Origin: Tateyamaria pelophila
GTDB lineage: Bacteria; Pseudomonadota; Alphaproteobacteria; Rhodobacterales; Rhodobacteraceae
DNA: 64,000 bases
Direction: 5' to 3'
Assembly: GCF_019966495.1 (NCBI RefSeq)
Contig: NZ_JAIMIA010000010.1
Location: 1 to 64,000, forward strand
Within the stretch, counting starts at the first letter, position 1, and every line of letters starts with the position of its first letter. The position numbers and the translations under genes are program-made. Of the stretch, positions 47,893 through 57,355 are shown one piece after another. The notes beneath the pieces are model-generated. The model saw nothing but the letters and a program-made list of their open reading frames with translations, was not told the DNA's origin and made no database searches.

Positions 47893-49030
47893 GGATTGGG
47901 AAGCCGGAGGGTTCGGGCTTTATGTGCACTGGCCGTTCTGCGCCGCCAAATGCCCCTACTGCGACTTTAACAGCCATGTCACACGTAGCGTCGACCATGC
48001 GGCATGGCGCGTCGCGCTTGTCGACGAAGTCAAACGTTTGGGTAAAGAAACACATGGGCGCGTTTTGCGTTCGGTGTTTTTTGGCGGGGGCACGCCCAGC
48101 CTGATGGAGCCAGCCACCGTTGGTGCCATCCTAGATACGGTTCATGCAGTATGGCCAACAGCCAATGATCTGGAAGTCACGCTGGAAGCCAACCCAACCT
48201 CCGTCGAAGCCTCAAAGTTTGCCGACTTCCACCACGCAGGCGTCAACCGCGTATCAATGGGCATTCAGGCGCTGAACGATCCGGACCTTCGCGCATTAGG
48301 ACGTCAGCACAGCGCACGCGAGGCATTGGCCGCTTTTGATATCGCACGACGTGCGTTTGAGCGCGTCAGTTTTGATCTGATGTATGGACGGCAAAACCAA
48401 TCCCTCTCCGATTGGGAAACAGAGTTGTCGTCTGCGCTTGCGTTGGGTTTGGACCATGTCTCGCTGTATCAACTGACTATCGAGGGCGGGACAGCCTTTG
48501 GCGATCGTTACAAGGCCGGGAAACTACGCGGTTTACCGGATGAAGATCTGTCGGCAGATATGTATGCGCTCACACAAGATATATGTGCCTCCCACAACAT
48601 GCCGCGGTATGAAGTCTCCAACCACGCAACGGACGGGAATGAGTCACGGCATAATCTGGTTTATTGGCGATACGGCGACTATGTGGGAATTGGCCCCGGC
48701 GCACATGGCAGGATAACCGCAGAGGGCGTCAGGCAGGCAACCGAACAAACGCGCATGCCGAGCGCATGGCTGTCAGGCGTTTCACGTGAAACTCGCGAAA
48801 ACCTGAGCGGCACAGACCAGGCCAGCGAGTTTCTATTGATGGGTCTCCGGCTCACCGAAGGTGTGAGCAAACAGCGGTTCACCAATCTGGCGGGATACGC
48901 CCTGAACGAGGATAAAATCGCTCATCTCGTTGATCTCGGGATGATTTCCAACACCAAAGATCGAATTGTTGTTACCAATCAAGGGTTTACGGTGTTAAAC
49001 GGCATTCTCAGAGAGCTATTGGGAGCTTAG
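47885..49030 (+). CDS. hemW: Radical SAM heme chaperone HemW
   Basis: HemW is a radical SAM protein related to HemN but thought to carry heme to membrane targets. The 381-residue frame starts with TTG at 47885, the only start that keeps [17 protein letters not shown], with C19, C23 and C26 binding [4Fe-4S]. It lacks the extra cysteine pattern of true HemN. A degenerate parS lies inside it at 48778-48793, encoding VSRET (299-303). The 3' end overlaps parB by four bases. Confidence 0.94.
48778..48793. promoter_or_regulatory. Degenerate parS site inside hemW
   Basis: CGTTTCACGTGAAACT matches the ParB-binding consensus TGTTTCACGTGAAACA at 14 of 16 positions; the 14-base core palindrome (48779-48792) is perfect and only the outer bases differ. 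It encodes V-S-R-E-T in hemW, the same peptide as the perfect site in rsmG. It lies about 240 bases beyond the 3' end of parB. Confidence 0.8.
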
Positions 49031-49914
49031 CTGCTTAATCTCCGGCACAGATCATCCAACTCGTCCAATGAGGTGTAATGAAGAGTCAGCTGCCCCGCTT
49101 CCCCGTTCGGCGCATGGGTCAACGACACCTTCACTCCCGTCGCGGCAGACAGGTCGCTTTCAAGCGCGCGGGTATCTGCATCCTTTTCGGTTGTCTTGTT
49201 TGAAGCACGCGCACGGCCCGAGTCTTCTCCAGTTTGACCGGAAGATTTTTTAACCAAGGCTTCCGTCTGACGCACTGAAAGCCCGCCGGCGATAATCTTT
49301 TTCGCCAGCGCCTCGGGATCCGTTGCCGTTATCAAAGCACGGGCATGGCCCGAACTCAGTTCGCCTTTGAGGACGTTATTCTGTATCGACGGCGGCAAAT
49401 TCAACAATCTCAGCAAGTTGGCAATATGGCTACGGCTCTTGCCCAAAGCCTCCGCCAGCTTTTCCTGTGTATGGCCAAAGCGATCCATAAGCTGTTTGAA
49501 GCCGGCCGCTTCTTCAATCGGGTTCAGGTCCGCACGTTGGATATTCTCGATGATCGCAACTTCCAGAACTTCGGTATCCGTAAAATCACGAACGATAACC
49601 GGCAGCTCGTGCAATTGCGCCTGTTGCGCCGCCCGCCAACGACGTTCCCCTGCAACGATTTCGAAACTTTCACCGACAGGGCGCACGATCAAAGGCTGCA
49701 ACACACCCTTTTCGCGGATTGATGCGACGAGATCATCCAAAGGCGCAGCTTCAAACTGTTTGCGCGGTTGGTCAGGGTTTGGTCTTATCCGCTCGATCGG
49801 GATCATTTGATCCCACGAAGTGCCGGTCGACGGTCGCGTTTGCGGCTCACTCACATCGGCCATCAAAGCGGACAAACCACGCCCCAGACCGCGTTTCTTA
49901 TCATTGCTTACCAT
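49027..49914 (-). CDS. parB: Chromosome partitioning protein ParB
   Basis: ParB binds parS and loads SMC while ParA moves the origin region to the poles. The 295-residue protein begins KKRGLGRGLSALMAD and has the RRWRAAQQAQLHELPV (GERRxR CTP-binding) region. The helix-turn-helix is TQEKLAEALGKSRSHIANLLRLL, and the C-terminal dimer domain ends LTLHYTSLDELDDLCRRL. It follows parA by three bases and overlaps hemW at its 3' end. Confidence 0.98.
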   Translation of the reverse strand: MVSNDKKRGLGRGLSALMADVSEPQTRPSTGTSWDQMIPIERIRPNPDQPRKQFEAAPLDDLVASIREKGVLQPLIVRPVGESFEIVAGERRWRAAQQAQLHELPVIVRDFTDTEVLEVAIIENIQRADLNPIEEAAGFKQLMDRFGHTQEKLAEALGKSRSHIANLLRLLNLPPSIQNNVLKGELSSGHARALITATDPEALAKKIIAGGLSVRQTEALVKKSSGQTGEDSGRARASNKTTEKDADTRALESDLSAATGVKVSLTHAPNGEAGQLTLHYTSLDELDDLCRRLSS

Positions 49915-49917
49915 GTC

Positions 49918-50727
49918 CTACACCCCTACTTTCGTATTGTTCGCAACCAATTCTTGCGCCAATTGGCGATACGCCATCGCGCCCTTGGATGCAGTATCGT
50001 AATTCAGAACCGGCATCGCAAAGGACGGAGATTCACTCACGCGCACATTCCGTGGGATAAGGGTTTTGAACACAACATCGCCCAAATTGTCCCGGGCGTC
50101 CTGTTCCACCTGAAGTGACAAGTTGTTTCGCGCGTCGTACATCGTCAAAACCACGCCTTCGATCCGCAGATCAGGGTTCCCAGCCTGGCGTACCTCACGA
50201 ATGGTCAACATCAATTGTGACAGGCCCTCAAGCGCGAAAAACTCGCTTTGAAGCGGAACCAAAACAGAATGCGAGGCAATCATTGCATTAACGGTCAGCA
50301 AATTCAGCGACGGAGGACAGTCGATCAACACGTAATCAAAGTTGAATTGATCCATCTTTGGCTGCCGCAATGCGTCATGAAGCAAAAAGCTGCGTTTTTC
50401 GTTTGAAATCAAGTCAATGTCAGCAGAACTCAGATCGACCGTCGCTGGCACAATCGAAATATTTCGAAACCGCGTCTTTACGATTACATCCTCGAGAGCG
50501 ACATCATCGAGCAACAAATCATAAGTGGTAAACGTACGATCATCCGTTTCGATTCCAAAGCCGGTTGACGCGTTTCCCTGCGGATCCAAATCAATGACCA
50601 GAACGGAAAAACCCATTTCCGCCAGTCCGGCGGCAAGATTCACGGCCGTTGTTGTTTTTCCGACGCCGCCTTTCTGATTTGTAATGGAGATGATTTTTGG
50701 TCCTGGTGGCCGCGTTGGGTCAGACAC
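49918..50727 (-). CDS. parA: Chromosome partitioning ATPase ParA
   Basis: The 269 residues have the deviant Walker A KGGVGKT (19-25), DLDPQGNASTGF and DCPPSLNLLTVNA, typical of Soj-type ParA. Translation starts at a GTG (50727) and overlaps the rsmG stop by eight bases. ParA with ParB and the nearby parS sites forms the segregation machinery. It is read away from the proposed origin. Confidence 0.98.
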   Translation of the reverse strand: MSDPTRPPGPKIISITNQKGGVGKTTTAVNLAAGLAEMGFSVLVIDLDPQGNASTGFGIETDDRTFTTYDLLLDDVALEDVIVKTRFRNISIVPATVDLSSADIDLISNEKRSFLLHDALRQPKMDQFNFDYVLIDCPPSLNLLTVNAMIASHSVLVPLQSEFFALEGLSQLMLTIREVRQAGNPDLRIEGVVLTMYDARNNLSLQVEQDARDNLGDVVFKTLIPRNVRVSESPSFAMPVLNYDTASKGAMAYRQLAQELVANNTKVGV

Positions 50728-51331
50728 GTTGAATATCCCTTATTTTCAGAATAGCTGCTTCAGGACTGGTTTTACTCAGGACAGCATCGCACAAAAACAG
50801 CCAGTTCTTACGCGCATCTTCGACTTCAGCCTTCCATCTTGCGCCCTTCATAAACACCCCAAGGCCCCCCGGCGCAAGATGACGAAACGACATTTCGATC
50901 AAGCTGTTGAGATCCGTCAACGCTCGGGCAGACACGACATCTGCATTCTGAACTTCAATCATTTCGATACGCTTAGCCGAAACATTGATGGAAACCTCAA
51001 TTTCACGCGCACATGCGCGCAGAAAGGTGGCCTTTCGTTGATCGCTTTCGACGAGGGTCAGGTTCAAAGGCTCATTCCAACCTTCGGCCAAAATTGCGAG
51101 AACAACACCGGGTAGCCCTCCACCACTACCAAGATCAACCCATTTACCTTGCGTCTGTTGGTAAATCTGTGCGGAATCCCAAATATGGCGCTCAGAAATG
51201 TCTTCTATCGTAGACTTTGAAATTAAATTGATCTTGCGGGTCCACTTTTCCAACAAGTTTTTGTAGGTTTCCAACTTCTCCAATGTTTCACGTGAAACAT
51301 CGCGTGAAAACCACTGCGGAACTTCAATCAT
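50720..51331 (-). CDS. rsmG: 16S rRNA (guanine-N7) methyltransferase RsmG
   Basis: RsmG (GidB) methylates G527 of 16S rRNA. The 203-residue protein contains the SAM loop [17 protein letters not shown] and [12 protein letters not shown]. Its N-terminus ([20 protein letters not shown]) encodes a perfect parS site, so residues 12-16 are constrained by the DNA signal. It overlaps mnmG by four bases (ATGA). Confidence 0.96.
51284..51299. promoter_or_regulatory. Perfect parS site inside rsmG
   Basis: TGTTTCACGTGAAACA is the full 16-base ParB-binding consensus, a perfect palindrome extended to 18 bases by A and T on its flanks. It encodes VSRET (residues 12-16) near the start of rsmG, a common place for parS in bacteria. 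Confidence 0.95.
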
Positions 51332-53187
51332 GCTGACTTCTTTTCAAGAAACTTGATACGCCCCAAGACAAGAGCCAAGCCAGCAGGGGTCATTCCATCG
51401 ATTCGACCTGCTTGGGCGAGATCAGACGGCCGAACTTTCTCCAGCTTTCCTTTCAGTTCAGAAGACAAGCCCGAGACATCCGCATAAGAAAAATCTGCTG
51501 GTATCGCGTGTTTTTCATCTTTCCGGAGCTTCGCGACATCTTTTTTCTGTCTGTCGATATAGGTAGCATACAACGCGTCACGCGATAACTGCTCGGAAAT
51601 TTGTGGTGAAATGTCCGAGAAATCAGAATTCAATGCTTTCACGTCGTCAAAAACGACGTCCGGGAAGGCCAACAATTGGAACGCCGACCGTTTTGTGCCA
51701 TCTTGATTAATCTGGATGCCAGATTCAAGAATTTGCTTTGGAGAATAGAGATGTTCTGTCAAAAGAGCCCTTCCTGCATCCAGCAACGATTTCTTTTTCA
51801 AAAAGGCTGTCCGTCGCTCTTCTCCGACACAACCCAGTGTAAGACCAAATTCTGTCAACCGCTGGTCTGCGTTGTCCGCGCGCAAAGACAGTCTGAATTC
51901 TGCCCGCGAGGTAAACATGCGATAGGGTTCGCTCACGCCGCGCGTCGTCAGATCGTCGATCATCACGCCAATATAGCTTGTGTCGCGACGGAAATAGACC
52001 GGTTCACCGCCTTGCGCCGCCCTTGCAGCGTTCAGTCCCGCTACAATCCCTTGGGCGGCAGCCTCTTCATACCCAGTTGTTCCATTGATCTGTCCGGCTA
52101 GAAATAGCCCTGGAACAGCGCGAACGCCTAGCGTCGCCTCCAGCGCGCGTGGATCAACATAATCATATTCTATTGCATAACCTGGCTGAAGTATCTCAGC
52201 TGCTTCTAAACCCGCAATCGAGCGGACATAGTCCACCTGCACATCCTCAGGGAGTGAGGTAGAAATACCGTTGGGATAGACCGTGTGGTCATTAAGCCCT
52301 TCAGGTTCAAGGAAGATCTGGTGCGAGTCTTTATCGGCAAACCGGACAATTTTATCTTCGATGGACGGGCAGTACCTTGGACCGACTCCATCTATATGTC
52401 CGCCATACATCGCAGAACGTTCGAGATTTTTACGGATAATATCATGAGTTCGGGAATTTGTATGCGTGATCCCGCAATCAACCTGTGGCAGCGGCGCGCT
52501 CTCAGAAAGGAAAGAAAACAAAACCGGTTCGTCGTCAGCTGCCTGAACTGATAGCTGATCCCATGCAATTGTACGACCATCCAGCCGCGGCGGTGTTCCG
52601 GTTTTCAATCGTCCCAGAGGGAGGCCAAAGCTATCCATCCGGTCCGCGAGTTTTGAAGACGCCTTATCACCCATGCGACCACCGGAGTAGGATTTGTCCC
52701 CGATATGAATAACACCACGCAAAAATGTGCCGGTTGTCAGTATGACGGAATCTGCCGTTAACTCGGACCCATCGCCCAATATAACCCCGTTCACACGATC
52801 TTTTGTCATCAGAAAATCAGTAACTTCTCCAACGATAACTGAAAGGCTCGCGGTGTTTTCCATGATATACTGCATTTCACGCTGATATACGCGCCGATCT
52901 GCTTGTGTGCGCGGGCCCTGTACCGCGGGCCCCTTCCGTCTGTTCAGAAGTCGAAACTGGATACCAGATGCGTCCGCAACACGACCCATGATCCCGTCCA
53001 AAGCGTCAATCTCACGGACAAGATGCCCTTTACCCAAGCCTCCGATGGCGGGATTGCACGACATCACGCCAATACCTTCGCGTTTCATCGTGATGAGCGC
53101 GGTGGACGCACCCATGCGCGCGGACGCATGTGCAGCTTCACAGCCGGCGTGCCCGCCCCCGATCACGATGACATCGAATTGTTTCAC
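51328..53187 (-). CDS. mnmG: tRNA uridine-5-carboxymethylaminomethyl enzyme MnmG (GidA)
   Basis: MnmG and MnmE modify wobble uridine 34 of several tRNAs. The protein is 619 residues from a GTG at 53187 ([19 protein letters not shown] as fMet...), with the FAD loop [10 protein letters not shown] and the [11 protein letters not shown] and [14 protein letters not shown] motifs. GGAG lies eight bases before this GTG; a longer frame from 53235 would overlap mnmE. The start codon lies in the middle of a perfect parS. Confidence 0.97.
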
Positions 53188-53195
53188 GTGAAACA
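53180..53195. promoter_or_regulatory. Perfect parS overlapping the mnmG start codon
   Basis: TGTTTCACGTGAAACA, a perfect match, lies between mnmE and mnmG. Its central CAC (53185-53187) is the complement of the GTG that starts mnmG, so ParB occupancy covers the ribosome binding site, start codon and first codons at DNA level. The mnmE stop is five bases beyond its right end. Confidence 0.95.
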
Positions 53196-55901: not shown

Positions 55902-56351
55902 TCAGAATTTCACGACCACGGAAAGCACGATGAGCACCATCAATACTGTCGGAACCTCGTTCATCATGCGGTAGCCGCGCCCGGACTTGATCGGCCCACC
56001 CGCTGCAAAAGCCTTGCGTTGCGCGCCTAACCACCCATGGAAGCCTGACATGGCCAATATCCCTGCAAGCTTCGTCCAGGGCCACACTGCGCTCCAATCG
56101 ACGACACCGGGGATCAGGACAAGCCATATGCCAAACAGCCATGTGGAAACCATCGCCGGGTTCATGATCACCTTGAGCAGCTTGTATTCCATGGTCTGAA
56201 ACAGCTCATGAGTCTGGCCTTCCAGCCCAACCTGCTCTGCGTGGTAGACATACAGACGCGGGAGATAGAACAGCGCAGCCATCCAGGCGATGACCGACAT
56301 AATATGAAATGCCTTGATCCACGGATAAAGCGAGATGATCAGATCAAACAT
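55902..56351 (-). CDS. hemJ: Protoporphyrinogen IX oxidase HemJ
   Basis: HemJ is the membrane protoporphyrinogen oxidase of many bacteria lacking HemG/HemY. The 149 residues contain four hydrophobic helices, the conserved KAFHIMSVIAWMAALFYLPRLYVYH (with two histidines) and a C-terminal FRMMNEVPT-like RGYRMMNEVPTVLM. ATG 56351 was chosen over a GTG at 56378. It is the first gene left of the proposed origin, and is read away from it; rho follows. Confidence 0.95.
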   Translation of the reverse strand: MFDLIISLYPWIKAFHIMSVIAWMAALFYLPRLYVYHAEQVGLEGQTHELFQTMEYKLLKVIMNPAMVSTWLFGIWLVLIPGVVDWSAVWPWTKLAGILAMSGFHGWLGAQRKAFAAGGPIKSGRGYRMMNEVPTVLMVLIVLSVVVKF

Positions 56352-56755
56352 GATGGACGGCCCTAAGTTCGGGCCCACCCTAATAATAAATATATAAGAT
56401 AGAAAAGATGATGATTTGGTAGTGTCGGCAATTTCTGTGGATTATCGACTTTTACCGCGTGTTATCCCCCTTGTGGACAAACGTGGATCATCACCGCGGA
56501 CTCCGAGGATAGATCAAAAAATCCCATATATAACAACATCATACGTAACTCTTATGCAGGAAAGGGTTGGAATATCTTGGTGGATTGTTTTGTATAAACA
56601 GTTTTTTGCACGGCAGCAAAGTTATCCTTACCCGCAAAGGATATATTTGGCCAAAGTCACCAGAGTTGCCAAGTTTATGGCTGGGCTTGGTACAATTCGT
56701 CTTTTATCCCTAAGCACACAGGCTGCCGTCCTCAGCACTTCACAGGGTTACCCAC
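56352..56755. other. Candidate chromosomal replication origin (oriC)
   Basis: This 404-base gap is the only non-coding stretch above 300 bases. It contains AT-rich blocks (about 56380-56420 and 56511-56555) and DnaA-box-like 9-mers: TGTGGATTA (56436-56444), TGTGGACAA (56472-56480), CGTGGATCA (56482-56490) and TTACCCACA (56748-56756), plus weaker TTATCC repeats at 56462, 56622 and 56704. A GANTC methylation site is at 56499-56503. Genes on both sides are transcribed away from it, and parA/parB/parS lie within 8 kb. I see no gene inside it. Confidence 0.72.
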
Positions 56756-57355
56756 ATGTCTATCCCGCTCATCCTTGCCTCAGGCTCAGAGATCCGTGCC
56801 GTGTTGTTGCGCAACGCAGGGCTTGATTTCAAACAAATCATCGCTCGCATTGATGAACAAAGCATTAAGCAGGCCTTGCAAGCGGAAGAAGCCCCCCCGC
56901 GCGACATTGCAGATGCCCTTGCAGAGATGAAAGCGCGCAAGGTCGCAGACAAGCATCCCGAGGCAATGGTCATCGGCTGCGATCAGGTCCTGTCCTTTGA
57001 GGGCGACTTGCTATCCAAACCGCGCGATCCCGAGGATGCTCGCAAACAATTGCAAACTATGCGAAAAAAGCGGCACGCCCTTTTATCTGCTGCTGTCATC
57101 TACCACGATGGTCGGCCGATCTGGCGGCACGTGGGTCAGGTCCGTCTCAGGATGCGGGATGTTTCGGACGCCTATATAGACGGCTATGTAGACAGAAACT
57201 GGGATCAGATTCAGCATTGTGTTGGCGCTTATCAACTGGAAGCCGAGGGTGTTCGGCTGTTTCACAGCATTGAGGGGGATTACTTTCATGTCCTTGGTAT
57301 GCCACTTTTGGAACTGCTGGCGTTCCTGACGCTGCGCGGGGTCATCGAAGGATAG
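56756..57355 (+). CDS. maf: Maf-like nucleotide pyrophosphatase
   Basis: Maf proteins hydrolyse modified or canonical nucleoside triphosphates. The 199-residue protein shows LASGSEIRAVLLRNAGLDF at the start, IGCDQVLSF (catalytic aspartate) and the C-terminal YQLEAEGVRLFHSIEGDYFHVLGMPLLELLAFL. Subfamily (YhdE- or YceF-like) is not certain. The first base of the ATG is also the last base of a DnaA-like box in the proposed origin. It is followed by aroE. Confidence 0.94.
   Translation: MSIPLILASGSEIRAVLLRNAGLDFKQIIARIDEQSIKQALQAEEAPPRDIADALAEMKARKVADKHPEAMVIGCDQVLSFEGDLLSKPRDPEDARKQLQTMRKKRHALLSAAVIYHDGRPIWRHVGQVRLRMRDVSDAYIDGYVDRNWDQIQHCVGAYQLEAEGVRLFHSIEGDYFHVLGMPLLELLAFLTLRGVIEG

Follow-up and report, generated by a model that had tools for sequence, protein, structure and literature searches.

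The window analysed here, a stretch of 64,000 nucleotides of Tateyamaria pelophila DNA, contains at positions 56352..56755 an intergenic region that is flanked by hemJ on the left (55902..56351, minus strand, TIGR00701) and by maf on the right (56756..57355, plus strand, TIGR00172), and that is predicted from sequence and synteny to be oriC, with no strand assigned. The first-pass annotation of this DNA had proposed the hemJ-maf gap as a probable chromosomal origin, and its description of the neighbourhood is accurate. Transcription diverges from the gap into hemJ and maf, and the partition genes are placed to the left as described: parB at 49027..49914 (minus strand, TIGR00180) and the gene of a parA-like partition ATPase at 49918..50727 (minus strand). 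The parABS system reported nearby includes two perfect parS sites, at 51284..51299 and 53180..53195, i.e., 3-5 kb from the gap, which were found with the parS consensus string; both are situated within coding sequence, the former in rsmG and the latter in mnmG. The dnaA gene, said to be absent from this stretch, is indeed located on another contig (C223). The gap is also AT-rich, as had been claimed, with a GC content of 44% compared with 53-59% in the 2-kb segments between 48 and 64 kb (49% in one of them).

An AT-rich tract at 56380..56404, conserved in an alignment of 95 sequences, is a likely duplex-unwinding element, judged by its sequence alone. It is followed by the trinucleotide repeat AAG ATG ATG ATT TGG TAG at 56405..56422, a putative variant DnaA-trio tract whose trio strand is the plus strand. 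Between the box-proximal trio and the putative anchor DnaA box TAATCCACA (56436..56444, minus strand, one mismatch) there is a 13-nt spacer (56423..56435), which may contain a degenerate second box; on the plus strand, the repeat is followed after these 13 nt by TGTGGATTA. To the right of the anchor box are a weak DnaA box TTATCCCCC (56462..56470, plus strand), a putative box TTGTCCACA with one mismatch (56472..56480, minus strand), a weak box TGATCCACG with two mismatches (56482..56490, minus strand), the weak boxes TTATCCTTA (56622..56630, plus strand, within a conserved block) and TTATCCCTA (56704..56712, plus strand), and a putative box TTACCCACA (56748..56756, plus strand), which ends on the A of the maf initiation codon.

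The three exact TTATCC sites that had been listed are present at 56462, 56622, and 56704. DnaA boxes with at most one mismatch occur in the gap at 56436 and 56472 (both on the minus strand) and at its edge at 56748 (plus strand); the nine boxes that a search relaxed to two mismatches gives within the gap, including those at 56436 and 56472, are weak evidence. The clustering of the better boxes exceeds chance, since three of the seven with at most one mismatch in the 86,205-base contig fall at the gap (binomial estimate of about 4e-6). The single GANTC site (56499..56503) does exist, but it carries no weight as evidence for an origin, such sites occurring at chance frequency (156 in 86 kb); in the family they are mildly more frequent than in shuffled gaps (1.9 vs. 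1.5 per gap).

The main feature of the gap was overlooked in the first-pass annotation; it is the trinucleotide tract, which is conserved and adjoins the AT-rich stretch. When the gap was used as a query in a DNA search, 17 of 149 family genomes gave a match, its own among them, and the matches in the other 16 lie within window positions 56368-56481. All 16 relatives have maf-aroE on one side of the matching region, and on the opposite side 13 have hemJ and 15 have rho, which is missing in the remaining one because its 3-kb locus ends short of it. A scan of named genomes provided 80 further loci, the nearest of which by Maf identity is also from Tateyamaria (84%). After two loci that were cut off (L101 and L143) had been dropped, the 96 loci gave 94 gaps, and thus 95 with that of the window; 94 of these are distinct, the gaps of L017 and L087 being identical. 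Their length is 351-456 bp where hemJ is present and 496-565 bp in the six without it; in these six (L011, L016, L017, L087, L111, and L140), no hemJ separates rho from the origin, and the core is retained.

The most conserved noncoding block of the 95-sequence alignment corresponds to window positions 56380-56445, includes the trio tract, and consists of AT-rich DNA, AAAGGATGATGATTTTGTAGGG, about 13 nt, and CTGTGGATTAT. The distance from GTAG to the box varies by no more than one or two bases across most family sequences, and the form of the anchor box found in the window is the commonest in the family (39 occurrences in the 95 gaps). An extra TGTGGATA box abuts the repeat in L113, L116, L135, and L138, forming a tandem pair as in other orders. 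A Rhodobacterales-like origin locus is also present in a record titled Nocardioides marinus (L103), by name an actinobacterium, which is probably mislabelled or contaminated.

Two sequence models of the core were used, with matches accepted at E 1e-3 under strict filters. The first, R1, was trained on 69 family sequences and matched 192 of 296 family genomes, once in each, and missed 104; the best 30 of the 192 matches are all located between rho-(hemJ) and maf. In the class-wide set, R1 matched 16 of 289 genomes, five of which, including the one analysed here, belong to the family. Among the 11 outside it, seven have the match beside hemE, one upstream of rho, and three, which are the weakest (L209, L210, and L211), at places other than known origin genes; these three were rejected as origins and taken as chance matches. 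The second model, R2, was trained on 34 sequences, of which 29 do not belong to the family. Its alignment omitted L208, L217, L220, L224, L230, L232, and L233 (L220, L224, and L232 only after layout), and the class set excluded L218, which comes from the same genome as L202, as well as L209-L211 and L241, in which no left gene was found.

R2 matched 153 of the 289 class genomes, training genomes among them, with two matches in one genome, and missed 136. The best 30 of its matches, training genomes again included, adjoin hemE in 29 cases and lie between rho and ppsR in one. For 55 genomes outside the training set, some of which were perhaps not among the genomes searched, ppsR coordinates were available; 28 of them were matched; in 27 of these held-out genomes the match precedes ppsR by 220-949 bp and is on its strand, and in the 28th it is beside hemE. 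Among 150 genomes of the phylum, R2 matched 17, nine inside the class and eight outside. Of these eight, five are beside dnaA, two beside hemE (L339 and L342, whose trio reading is ambiguous), and one (L338) has no known origin gene adjacent to it and was taken as a chance match. Applied to 27 DnaA loci of other classes, R2 gave three matches, all weak. In the genome analysed here, each model has a single match, and this match is the hemJ-maf gap; both matches span the trio tract (R1 at 56380-56449, R2 at 56382-56456).

The order and strandedness of box, 13-nt spacer, and tract are those of DnaA-trio elements, which in B. subtilis read 3'-GAT-5' and which have been searched for by a conserved middle A, as runs of at least three NAN trinucleotides not more than 16 bp away from a box, the spacer length peaking at 10-13 (PMC8287927). 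At the four minus-strand boxes of the window with at most two mismatches (56436, 56472, 56482, and 56589), this published rule does not apply, as the longest NAN runs there are 1, 1, 2, and 2, respectively, the first of these values being that of the anchor box. The repeat of the window has instead G at most of its third positions; as the fourth trio, ATT, breaks this G rule, only two consecutive conforming trios adjoin the spacer in this particular sequence. We propose that the variant trios read 5'-[A/T]NG-3' on the trio strand (3'-GN[A/T]-5'), with a middle base that can be A, T, or G but is only exceptionally C.

An alternative is that the origin is an ordinary one, in which the tract is read by the published middle-adenine rule and the variant is mere degeneracy. 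It could be argued for this that in the family a different frame yields GAT GAT GAT, with a middle A, and that elements following the published rule are present in 85% of origins (PMC8287927). With spacers of up to 24 nt, runs of three NAN are also found next to a box in 85 of the 95 family gaps when these are read in the conserved orientation, and in 53 when they are read in the other; for [AT]NG, the corresponding counts are 83 and 5. With spacers of up to 16 nt, at least three NAN barely separate the two orientations (49/95 vs. 44/95), as opposed to at least three 5'-[AT]NG-3' (29/95 vs. 5/95); that [AT]NG covers only 29 of the gaps within this published limit counts against the variant rule. 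NAN is equally poor at telling the orientations apart in a class test set of 28 hemE-ppsR gaps, for which ppsR score was the sole criterion of choice: at spacers of up to 24 nt, NAN runs occur in 11 gaps in the conserved orientation vs. 9 in the other, and [AT]NG runs in 16 vs. 0 (sign test, 3e-5); if three box mismatches are allowed, the counts are 20 vs. 16 and 22 vs. 3, respectively. These orientation tests were not blind, as the [AT]NG wording was fixed after both data sets had been viewed.

The composition of the tracts points in the same direction. In 15 class tracts of at least four trios, the middle base is G in 36, T in 23, A in 19, and C in none, and 13 of the 15 hold fewer than three trios with middle A. 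Three loci from other orders (L208, L226, and L228) have long tracts with no or almost no A. In 25 alphaproteobacterial tracts, T (33), G (28), and A (27) are found in the middle, and C once. In the light of these data, reading the tract by the published rule seems unlikely, and the origin probably works through the variant trios in the way proposed here.

The trio middle base can be related to the DnaA residue that contacts it. In the B. subtilis complex, Arg202 and Glu228 hold the guanine and Asn187 holds the adenine of the trio; C can substitute for the middle A, and G and T are less effective (PMC10721633). When DnaA sequences were aligned to PDB 8btg, all 31 alphaproteobacterial proteins were found to have an aromatic residue or His at position 187 (Tyr in 26, Phe in 3, His in 2), and all 31 keep Glu228 and have Lys at position 202. 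In 27 DnaA proteins of other classes of the same phylum, position 187 is Asn (8), Ala (7), Thr (7), Gln (4), or Leu (1), and aromatic in none.

Ten genomes of one family with Asn187 (f150) allowed a comparison of tracts. Their sites were obtained from genome-wide R2 matches (five), from R2 applied to dnaA loci (three), and by separate scans (two, L292 and L296); five tracts adjoin dnaA, and the other five are inside loci taken around dnaA. With the reading frame set by the proximal TAG, the four box-proximal trios of each site have A in the middle in 15 cases and C in 25, and no G or T was found among these 40. A fifth trio, read outward by eye in L296 and L298, would have middle T and was left uncounted. 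Three further loci with Asn187 (L286, L295, and L297) have no TAG tract before a box and were excluded from the count. L289, a dnaA locus from outside the alphaproteobacteria, has the tract-and-box string twice; the one at the end of the locus was counted, and the one at the R2 match reads identically. The tract is the same in L337 and L340. The middle bases of f150 and of alphaproteobacteria differ with a Fisher value of 6e-21, in which the unit is the trio and not an independent change, and for which the alphaproteobacterial tracts had been picked by the [AT]NG rule. From the few lineages compared, we infer that the variant trio rule goes with the aromatic residue that replaces Asn187 in alphaproteobacterial DnaA. 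It may well be, by a narrow balance of this evidence, that residue 187 sets a trio code that is not universal, with Asn187 admitting the amino-bearing bases A or C as the middle base, and the alphaproteobacterial aromatic residue going with trios that are anchored by G and have a middle T, G, or A, and no C.

The GC-skew check suggested by the first-pass annotation, run on the contig, gave a cumulative minimum at 57106, 0.35 kb to the right of the gap. GC skew has a change point near 57.1 kb that was not equalled in 10,000 permutations of 1-kb blocks, and the minimum of purine skew on the contig is at 56238. The keto-skew minimum, at 68155, disagrees with an origin at the gap. As the assembly of this genome is in 280 contigs, three single-contig relatives (G003, G055, and G123) were sampled for skew instead. 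At the orthologous element, the skew sign expected of an origin was observed in 16/19, 16/19, and 18/19 sampled stretches, which is a broad agreement. The best-fitting origin range includes the element in G055 and G123, and in G003 it is 3.22-3.38 Mb, i.e., 0.1-0.26 Mb off the element. Within a 20-kb stretch, the minimum of cumulative skew is 1.6 kb from the element in G003 and about 1 kb from it in G123; in G055 it is at the stretch edge, and the element shows only a local dip.

GC skew, synteny, the conserved noncoding architecture, the nearness of parS, and the model matches all support the proposal that had been made for this gap, and positions 56352-56755 very probably represent the chromosomal replication origin. 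That the gap is instead a DnaA-controlled regulatory region of divergent hemJ and maf promoters is very improbable. The observation in its favour is that the last eight bases of the gap together with the A of ATG match a DnaA box with no or one mismatch in 70 of the 95 family gaps, and, as this box lies over the maf start codon, the initiator may control maf. The core persists, however, with hemJ, rho, or hemE as its left neighbour and with maf, ppsR, or coaE as its right neighbour, and GC skew turns at the gap. Even less credible is an origin located elsewhere nearby or at dnaA, with the gap as a bystander, since the parAB genes and two parS sites at a distance of 3-7 kb, dnaA on contig C223, and the turn of keto skew 11 kb away have to be set against a turn of GC skew at no more than about 1 kb from the gap and against the single match of each model in this genome.

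Other regulatory sites were searched for in the gaps. Control by CtrA was rejected for the window gap, which has neither the full site TTAA-N7-TTAA nor a TTAA half-site; in the family, ten of the 95 gaps contain one full site, compared with 1.3 expected. The strict IHF consensus was not found in the window gap, and occurs in nine of the 95 family gaps on the plus strand and in three on the minus strand, with 1.9 expected per strand.

From these features we infer that DnaA binds at the gap, unwinds it, and initiates replication there. In the mechanism proposed, DnaA would bind the box array, i.e., the anchor box at 56436 and further boxes to its right, and a DnaA filament would extend leftward from the anchor box onto one strand of the adjoining duplex, gripping the plus strand via the six trinucleotides at 56405-56422. 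The AT-rich tract at 56380-56404 would then melt, the helicase would load, and replication would proceed in both directions from the gap.

There is precedent for calling an origin in this way. Ori-Finder was used to predict the origins of 101 Rhodobacteraceae from nucleotide asymmetry and the number of boxes, followed by curation by hand, and eight strains were left unresolved (PMC6699656). Like the window gap, these computationally predicted origins are close to the skew minimum and to parAB; a description of the trinucleotide core was not found in the sections of that report consulted. In Caulobacter crescentus (Cori), Rickettsia, and Wolbachia, the origin is at a locus of the hemE type (PMC1914354). 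The hemE-type origins and the window gap both have an AT-rich tract, weak DnaA boxes, and the same kind of neighbourhood. In other orders, the hemE-type loci are arranged as hemE, origin, and ppsR (COG1806), with maf-aroE beyond in the loci matched by R1. Unlike these, the window gap is flanked by hemJ and maf and not by hemE and COG1806/ppsR; hemE of this genome is on contig C3, and a search of the genome for ppsR gave no PF03618 match. At loci of the window type, the place of hemE is occupied by hemJ or rho. Via R1 and R2, the core is nevertheless shared with the hemE loci of other orders, in a sample to which Caulobacter itself did not belong. The TTAA-N7-TTAA arrangement of Cori is another difference from the window gap. 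The Caulobacter G-box is altered at its second base, and at this position the anchor box of the window has A. The Caulobacter change is T to G (PMC4468827).

The locus resembles the basal unwinding system of B. subtilis in having a box, a spacer of 10-13 bp, a trinucleotide run on one strand, and AT-rich DNA beyond it, and the proximal trio of the window is the canonical 3'-GAT-5', as in B. subtilis. It differs in that the middle base is not restricted to A but may also be T or G, with C nearly absent, in that G is at most first positions (3'-GN[A/T]-5'), and in that alphaproteobacterial DnaA has an aromatic residue instead of Asn at position 187. The middle position has been called strictly conserved in H. 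pylori trios (PMC8235120), deviant trios without the middle adenine have already been suspected (PMC8287927), and DnaA homologs may recognise other sequences (PMC10721633). How DnaA chooses the strand and the bases at which it opens the duplex is still under investigation. In the parts of the literature on DnaA-trios in alphaproteobacteria covered by our searches, no account was found of a class-wide core or of a changed trio rule, and, as far as these searches went, the two, with the matching DnaA residue, are new. A class-wide exception accompanied by a change in the reader residue offers a direct swap test of the middle-adenine rule and, if true, would mean that origin and initiator are co-evolved pairs. 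In an earlier study, origin sequences were similar only among close relatives (PMC1914354); in contrast, the core described here is conserved class-wide and, if true, would allow origins to be found in draft genomes.
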